Shown one piece after another: positions 29 through 59,077 of a DNA stretch of 64,000 nt. Made by a program: the position numbers and the translations under genes. Origin of the DNA: Pseudomonadota bacterium. GTDB taxonomy: Bacteria; Pseudomonadota; Alphaproteobacteria; Caulobacterales; Caulobacteraceae. Positions within the stretch are counted from its first letter, which is position 1. Each line of letters begins with the position of its first letter. The stretch is taken from assembly GCA_018241995.1 (NCBI GenBank), contig JAFECT010000004.1, forward strand, positions 1 through 64,000, given 5' to 3'. Below the pieces are notes generated by a model. The model made no database searches, was not told the origin of the DNA, and was given only the letters and a program-made list of their open reading frames with translations.

Positions 29-97
29 GATCCTTCCCCTCTTGCGGGGGAAGGATGGGCCCCGCAAGCCGAAGGCGCAGCGGGAGGATGGGGGGTC
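29..97 (+). repeat. Left arm of inverted repeat enclosing DUF559 gene
   Basis: This 69-base arm is repeated in inverted orientation at 471-539. By hand alignment the two arms differ by one substitution and two single-base indels. Each arm is itself compound: a hairpin (CCTTCCCC pairing with GGGGAAGG, 33-55), a short GC linker, then a second weaker hairpin ending in GGATGGGGGGTC. The two arms enclose exactly one gene, so 29-539 looks like a 511-base unit. No target-site duplication is obvious at its ends. Confidence 0.85.
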
Positions 98-121
98 TGA
101 CAGACGTGTCAGAACAGAACT

Positions 122-466
122 GTGCCCGCGGATGAACTAACGATGCGGGCAAGGGCGCGTGCGATGCGCTCTGAGCCCACCGTCACCGAGCGCAAACTGT
201 GGCAACTGCTTCGTGGCGAGAAACTCGGCGTGAAGTTCCGCAGGCAGCAAGTGATCGGCCCTTACATTGCCGACTTCGCCTGCCTCCATCCGCGCCTCAT
301 CGTTGAGGCGGATGGCGCCTCCCATTTCGACGAAGAATACGACGCCCGGCGCGACCTCTGGTTCGAGCAGAACCTGTTCAGGGTGCTGCGGTTCAGGAAC
401 GTGGACATTCTCGAGAAGCCTGCGGAGGTTGAAGCCGCGATCCGGCGCGCGATCGGGCCGAGGTAG
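122..466 (+). CDS. DUF559 family endonuclease-like protein
   Basis: Predicted small nuclease of the DUF559 group, which belongs to the PD-(D/E)XK/Vsr-like fold. The 114-residue product shows the family pattern in order: ERKLWQLLR (23-31), the basic patch VKFRRQ (37-42), GPYIADFAC with Asp51, IVEADG with Glu62 and Asp64 as likely metal ligands, and the closing VLRFRN (88-93). The length is normal for the family. The start used is GTG at 122; ATG at 143 (residue 8) is an alternative, and neither has a clear ribosome-binding site. The gene stands alone between two 69-base inverted repeat arms, with the stop 4 bases before the right arm. There is no methyltransferase partner nearby, so an ordinary restriction-modification role is not supported. 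The true substrate is unknown. Confidence 0.82.
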   Translation: MPADELTMRARARAMRSEPTVTERKLWQLLRGEKLGVKFRRQQVIGPYIADFACLHPRLIVEADGASHFDEEYDARRDLWFEQNLFRVLRFRNVDILEKPAEVEAAIRRAIGPR

Positions 467-470
467 GCTC

Positions 471-539
471 GACCCCCCATCCTCCCGCGCGCCTGCGGCT
501 TGCGGGGCCCATCCTTCCCCCGCAAGAGGGGGAAGGATC
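471..539 (-). repeat. Right arm of inverted repeat enclosing DUF559 gene
   Basis: Inverted copy of 29-97, starting 4 bases after the DUF559 stop codon. It has the same two-hairpin architecture. Its outer end runs straight into the rpsB upstream region. Confidence 0.85.
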
Positions 540-41872: not shown

Positions 41873-41890
41873 GGAGCGGGCTGCTCTTCA

Positions 41891-42044
41891 CTCCTCCCTC
41901 GCTGGCGAGGGAGGGGGACCACCCGCAGGGTGGTGGAGGGTGCTTTTACGCCGCCTAGTTCGGATGCGGCGGTTGGTGGGGAGGCGTGGCTAGGCACCCA
42001 CCACCGCCTTCGGCGGTCCTCCTCCCTCGCAGGCGAGGGAGGAG
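41891..42044. repeat. Compound palindromic element, copy B (after eno)
   Basis: Arms at 41891-41943 and 41994-42044 are inverted copies with scattered differences. Each arm holds a hairpin (CCTCCCTCGC with GCGAGGGAGG) followed by a linker and a second hairpin ending in a GGTGG-rich GGGTGC. The 50-base centre contains another short dyad (GCCGC/GCGGC). It occupies most of the 289-base eno-ftsB gap, and no gene is seen in it. Confidence 0.85.
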
Positions 42045-42161
42045 TAGGGTGAAAGACCTTCAAGCCAACGCAAACTCTACGGCTAAGCTACGCTTCGGTA
42101 ACCCTTTTCGGGCCATGCTTAACGAGTCGTTCTCGTACCGCTCAGAAGGAGCGCGCGTCTC

Positions 42162-58837: not shown

Positions 58838-59077
58838 CTCCTCCCTCGCCTGCGAGGGAGGGGGACCGCGAAGCGGTGGGGGGTGCGCGTGAAGCCCGCC
58901 ACCAGTTCAACTGCGAACCTTCACCGCCAGCCCAGTCGCGCACCCTCCACCACGCTACGGCCCAGCCTTGGCCGCGGGCCAAGGCGTTCGGCGCGAGGAT
59001 CGAGAAATCGTTCTCGATCCTATGCCGGCTTTAGCCGGCCGCTTCTCACCCCCCTCCCTCGTGGGACGAGGGAGGAG
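58838..59077. repeat. Compound palindromic element, copy D (after lipA), with an insert
   Basis: The left arm (58838-58886) matches copy B closely (CTCCTCCCTCGC and a GGTGG-rich tail). The centre shares AAGCCCGCC and TTCAAC with copy C. The right arm begins at about 58939 (GCGCACCCTCCACCACG), is interrupted near 58963 by about 88 bases of stacked hairpins, and resumes at about 59051 with CCTCCCTCG and GACGAGGGAGGAG. No gene is seen in the 269-base gap. Confidence 0.8.
58965..59039. repeat. Three consecutive perfect hairpins inside copy D
   Basis: Hairpin 1 at 58965-58985 (9-bp stem GCCTTGGCC, 3-base loop), hairpin 2 at 58996-59021 (11-bp stem AGGATCGAGAA, 4-base loop) and hairpin 3 at 59024-59039 (6-bp stem GCCGGC, TTTA loop). 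Copies B and C lack this block, so it appears to be a separate element nested in the right arm. Confidence 0.8.

Follow-up and report, generated by a model that had tools for sequence, protein, structure and literature searches.

A Vsr-like DUF559 nuclease gene between inverted double-hairpin arms: an apparently undescribed type of mobile element in the Caulobacteraceae

Small genes and repeats with inverted symmetry are joined in several described systems. In the REPtrons, with their RAYT (TnpA-REP) genes and REP, BIME and REPIN sequences, a small gene lies between inverted palindromes and many gene-less doublets are present; enzyme and repeat types are matched, the locations are intergenic, and target duplication is not seen. 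The HUH enzyme of the RAYT systems performs both cleavage and strand transfer on the REPs (PMC8266576). Insertion sequences and MITEs combine terminal inverted repeats with a one-gene autonomous copy and shorter, gene-less copies that have the same ends. IS families without target-site duplication exist. The locus described here, a DUF559 nuclease gene enclosed by two inverted arms, resembles both systems in these respects and appears to be a mobile element of a type not yet described. It is probably a palindromic repeat element in its autonomous version, REPtron-like in its build, with a Vsr-like nuclease that acts on its own palindromes.

The window (the whole stretch of DNA that was analysed, 64,000 nt) opens with this unit, which occupies positions 29–539 (511 bp) and precedes rpsB and its leader. 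The left arm (29–97, forward strand) consists of an outer hairpin (30–56), an inner hairpin (about 61–84) and the tail GGATGGGGGGTC, which points towards the gene. The right arm (471–539, reverse strand) is an inverted copy of the left, with its tail at 471–483, the inner hairpin at about 484–506 and the outer one at 511–538. Between them lies the nuclease gene (122–466, forward strand), encoding 114 aa from the GTG at 122; there is an alternative in-frame ATG at 143. Aligned without gaps, the inverted arms match over 43 nt at 98% and 18 nt at 100% identity, and with gaps they share 67 identities over 69 nt (96% in a genome search with the right arm). They are the top inverted pair of the window, with a local score of 59.5 vs 19.5 for the next and a median of 11. 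Folding predicts two hairpins in each arm (z from -1.8 to -2.3). Both the inverted 69-nt arms around one small nuclease gene and the paired hairpins had been described in an earlier note made from the sequence, and both are borne out. Some 50 bp separate the unit from the rpsB leader (589–697, a weak, sub-threshold Rfam match), and rpsB itself follows at 702–1628. The contig starts only 28 nt outside the left arm, as would be expected if the repeat broke the assembly. A terminator search of the arms found no terminator-like site and no T-tract, and the absence of the latter rules against the arms being terminators. Unlike the GTAG-tagged REPs, each arm consists of two hairpins and a tail resembling GGRTGAGGG, and a GTAG tag adjoining the hairpin is absent from the arm consensus.

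The encoded protein belongs to DUF559 (PF04480; E 4.4e-33, 113.9 bits against a curated cut-off of 20.6), and its only other Pfam match is a weak one to MTES_1575. DUF559 is common, though we know of no role for it. NGO0050 (3hrl) is the best match to the AlphaFold model of the protein (pLDDT 88), ahead of I-Bth0305I (3r3p), a homing endonuclease, and Vsr (1cw0). For 3r3p, the structural match has TM-scores of 0.64/0.73 and an E-value of 2e-4, and the profile E-value is 8e-4. With I-Bth0305I, an EDxHD homing endonuclease, and with Vsr, the protein shares the fold, a small catalytic domain and conserved acidic and histidine residues; the invariant residues include E23, D51, E62, D64, H68 and D74. 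It differs from them in being a single catalytic domain without a DNA-binding tail and in not residing in an intron or intein, while the units occupy many non-homologous sites, mostly with palindromes. The E. coli homologue YcjD had earlier been assigned to the PD-(D/E)XK superfamily and tied to Vsr by sequence (PMC1189080). Neither Pfam search nor fold comparison of the window protein revealed a transposase domain (DDE, HUH, serine or tyrosine recombinase), and padloc gave no match. In place of the HUH Y1 tyrosine transposase that marks a REPtron there is a Vsr/EDxHD fold, and the unit differs from insertion sequences in having neither a known transposase domain nor a target duplication, and in that its ends are themselves palindromic. 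Some of a set of DUF559 ORFs (L014, L020, L021, L075, L076) extend into the downstream arm, giving PSPQPSP-like C-terminal peptides.

At genus level the search returned the source genome only, and comparisons were therefore made at the level of the family, the class and GTDB. Flanks of 300 nt on each side of the DUF559 match were compared by local alignment of the upstream sequence with the reverse-complemented downstream sequence, a score of at least 16 counting as bracketed. DUF559 is carried by 76 of 99 genomes of the family, in up to 11 copies. Inverted arms bracket 81 of 93 DUF559 genes in the family, 19 of 30 in other families of the class, and 58 of 78 among GTDB relatives, which include Alpha-, Beta- and Gammaproteobacteria, Acidimicrobiia and Latescibacteria. 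The controls gave 1 of 360 random intervals and 0 of 30 ParE toxin genes from genomes of the family, so that DUF559 genes are flanked by inverted palindromes far more often than the controls, in favour of the proposal in the earlier note. At 12 of the 93 family genes no arms were detectable by this test. The medians for family units are 512 bp for the whole, 59 nt for an arm and 91% for arm identity; the tails point to the gene in 81 units, away from it in 3 and both ways in 4. Related arrangements occur in plasmid and E. coli records; on a plasmid of Sphingomonas parapaucimobilis (L071), an armed DUF559 unit sits inside an operon, separating the genes for the two parts of the NAD(P) transhydrogenase alpha subunit.

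The source genome carries three DUF559 genes. Near-perfect inverted arms enclose each of them, with a different arm sequence in each case. When the genome was searched with the window unit's right arm, 20 near-full arm copies came to light, which form exactly 10 inverted pairs: the window unit itself and nine gene-less pairs of 186–222 bp. The outer hairpin (GATCCTTCC..GGAAGGATC) and the inward-facing GGATGGGGGGTC tail are shared by all ten, and so is the presence of an inner hairpin; gene-bearing and gene-less copies thus have their inverted terminal repeats in common. The gene-less pairs (L391–L408) mostly have one inner hairpin of GTTGC type and one of GAGCCGC type, as if left and right ends were distinct, and the window unit has the GAGCCGC type on both sides. 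Outside the arms, the flanks of the nine show no common sequence and no target duplication. The window holds two further gene-less inverted pairs, one at 41890–42045 and a less conserved one of the same type at 58838–59077. Their arm type (GGGGGACC..GGTGG) matches that of another DUF559 gene of the genome (L003), not the arms of 29–539. The earlier note had counted three other gene-less loci in the window; these two were identified, and a third was not found.

The two arms of one unit have a median alignment score of 41, compared with 11.5 between units. Arms are thus unit-specific by sequence comparison: matched within a unit and generally unlike between units. They fall into types by their tails (GGGTGAGGG, GGATGAGGG, GGTGGAGGG, GGATGGGG and AGGGTGGGG). 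When these types are placed on a protein tree of 86 DUF559s, 17 changes are needed, vs 44 after shuffling, and swapping arm types within genomes reached 17 changes in just 1 of 2000 trials. The tree was built with FastTree from few columns, so it is the clustering that counts here, single branches being unreliable. As judged from this tree, arm type tracks nuclease clade, even inside one genome. The arm type at DUF559 genes also predicts the type of the dispersed hairpins in each genome (rho 0.77, p 8e-7, 30 genomes).

Relatives provide filled, paired and empty versions of the same sites, the empty ones measuring 6–14 nt, as the idea of a mobile unit in the earlier note would have it. At the end of a pccB-like gene in one genus (g3; site 1), a 549-bp insertion contains the unit in G057, while the same two genes are 6–9 nt apart in G072, G310, G296 and G311; no target duplication is recognisable there. 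Between convergent genes in a second genus (g22; site 2), G046 has the DUF559 unit, G334 and G357 have a gene-less pair with near-identical outer arms (flanks 90–92% identical), G364 has one arm, G021 one hairpin, and G340 and G356 are empty, with 13–14 nt. In G357, both arms have the identical change in the loop. The sequences at site 2 are as compatible with gain of the gene as with its loss, and either the pair or the gene may have come first. At the rpsB site itself, no other member of the family has DUF559 directly upstream, a weak comparison, given how distant those genomes are and that only 28 nt of contig precede the left arm. Some units occupy orthologous sites across species and genera, which means that movement must be slow; concerted evolution of arms at orthologous sites had a mixed outcome. 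Sinorhizobium meliloti was considered as an empty site and rejected, since the orthologue of one unit there is a truncated gene; S. meliloti Ak57 (L083) retains just the 5' part of a DUF559 gene that Sinorhizobium sp. K101 (L069) has intact, and its copy is thus a decayed one.

A self-contained mobile unit had been suggested in the earlier note by analogy with RAYT and REP, and the bracketing, the nine gene-less copies, the filled and empty sites, and the match of arm type to clade all support this. The sole protein of the proposed element would be the single-domain Vsr/EDxHD-type nuclease, and its ends would be the two inverted double-hairpin arms. The nuclease would recognise its own arm type, probably as hairpins extruded in single-stranded or supercoiled DNA, and cut them at their foot or close to it. 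Through replication and repair by the host, the inverted pair might afterwards be copied to a different intergenic site or rejoined there; target duplication is not seen. Gene-less pairs would be non-autonomous copies moved in trans, as MITEs are by insertion sequences and REPINs by RAYTs. We infer the cutting and rejoining of the arms, and mobility at the present day. A nuclease that works by hydrolysis does not itself carry out strand transfer.

Homing offers a different account, in which the nuclease cuts gene-less pairs and break repair copies the gene between their arms, the palindromes spreading by other means. Among characterised folds, that of I-Bth0305I, a homing endonuclease, is the closest, and homing nucleases are known from both the EDxHD and the GIY-YIG family (PMC3943268). 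The gene-less pairs of two species at the orthologous position of a filled unit (site 2) would also suit it, although units lie at many different sites as well, and so would arm types that follow nuclease clades. However, it gives no account of pairs at sites that are empty in relatives or of ten pairs with the same arms scattered in one genome, and the arms of different units are generally unlike. We regard it as doubtful. Homing alone spreads a gene among existing pairs and makes no pairs at new sites, and as the fold is also without strand-transfer chemistry, cutting of the extruded arm hairpins by the nuclease, followed by rejoining or copying by the host, is preferred.

Within an arm type, the outer hairpin and the tail are conserved and the inner hairpin is hypervariable. 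Type A inner hairpins comprise 22 distinct sequences, all of them hairpin-like. Type B comprises 68, and 61 of these are hairpin-like; single positions show every one of the four Watson-Crick pair types. As the inner hairpin is varied yet paired, it is palindromy that is maintained, not sequence. A G.T pair occurs at one fixed position in 14 of the 22 type A inner hairpins. The substrates of Vsr are T:G mismatches, and the G.T pair is a lead only towards a comparable action. Together with the Vsr fold, it would suit a domesticated repair or hairpin-processing nuclease that performs a host service such as Vsr-like mismatch or cruciform repair, with palindromes that regulate or recruit the gene and spread otherwise. 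The Caulobacter DUF559 protein VsrA is linked to a solitary cytosine methyltransferase and to SOS induction (PMC12907096), which points the same way. Such a role is unlikely: the patchy presence, the up to 11 copies per genome and the empty sites are ill-suited to a housekeeping gene, and arms that match at each copy and differ between copies are left unaccounted for.

Genome-wide, repeat and DUF559 counts are correlated (rho 0.59), within genera not significantly (p 0.14), and the preferred reading does not rest on this correlation. Four genomes have 17–92 hairpins of the common type and no DUF559 match (G001 with 92, G080 with 73, G079 and G054); the nuclease may have been lost, the assembly may be incomplete, or there may be another mover. 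G024, G003, G054 and G080 are densely populated with gene-less pairs that have the same tails. Repeats are abundant in many of these genomes, and they could pile up intergenically with DUF559 genes as passive neighbours in repeat-rich places and the arms as terminators or insulators, a very improbable reading given that controls from the same loci and genomes were almost never bracketed, that the arms contain no terminator-like site, that the two arms match specifically, and that arm type follows the protein clade, not the genome.

The preferred reading, a nuclease acting on its own palindromes, may have a parallel in a second nuclease family. In several species, site 1 is occupied by a GIY-YIG gene between inverted palindromes that start with GTCATCC and end with CCA. 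Among small GIY-YIG genes of the family, 21 of 30 pass a flank test of the same kind with 350-nt flanks (the loci concerned are L196, L197, L202, L205 and L236–L265), most of them with palindromes of the GTCATCC..CCA type. These appear to be CGTC REPs, a likeness drawn from their published description. CGTC REPs have CCA-like tails and are commonest in Alphaproteobacteria, and a dedicated transposase has been reported absent (PMC3733652). They resemble the DUF559 repeats in being palindromic, intergenic, present in Alphaproteobacteria, arranged in inverted pairs and without a known transposase, and differ in sequence class; here they flank GIY-YIG and not DUF559 genes. GIY-YIG nucleases are thus a candidate partner for these transposase-less repeats.

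In E. coli (L081, L076, L079 and L388), the DUF559 gene ycjD is present in 3366 of 5426 genomes, with a downstream palindrome in 3362, and palindromes lie on one side only. The upstream palindrome was rejected as an arm; it is the sapF terminator, because strains without ycjD have a similar one. In the ycjD-less E. coli examined, the eef efflux operon lies between sapF and fabI. A clean empty site was rejected as well, since ycjD replaces the eef operon (PMC12817139).

In the accessible literature naming DUF559 or COG2852, no link to palindromic repeats was found, nor did the accessible papers yield a report linking GIY-YIG nucleases to CGTC REPs; subscription papers or preprints may contain one in either case. 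The available discussions of VsrA (PMC12907096) and ycjD (PMC12817139) likewise draw no connection with palindromes. No enzyme assigned to the present palindrome class, whose repeats reach hundreds in some genomes, was found in the literature. More broadly, the intergenic palindromes of many bacteria might be mobilised by small stand-alone nucleases and not by transposases, Vsr-like DUF559 proteins serving the CCCTCTCCC/GGGTGAGGG class and GIY-YIG proteins the CGTC class, a proposal for which we see the chances as evenly balanced. If true, HUH and DDE would be joined by a third enzyme chemistry that moves palindromes. The link between DUF559 and the repeats gives each a testable function, and the arm types ease the pairing of enzyme and substrate in vitro. 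It may also account for the movement of a large class of bacterial repeats. If palindromes can be spread by small nucleases that lack transposase chemistry, the set of mechanisms known to mobilise DNA and rearrange genomes would need to be extended.
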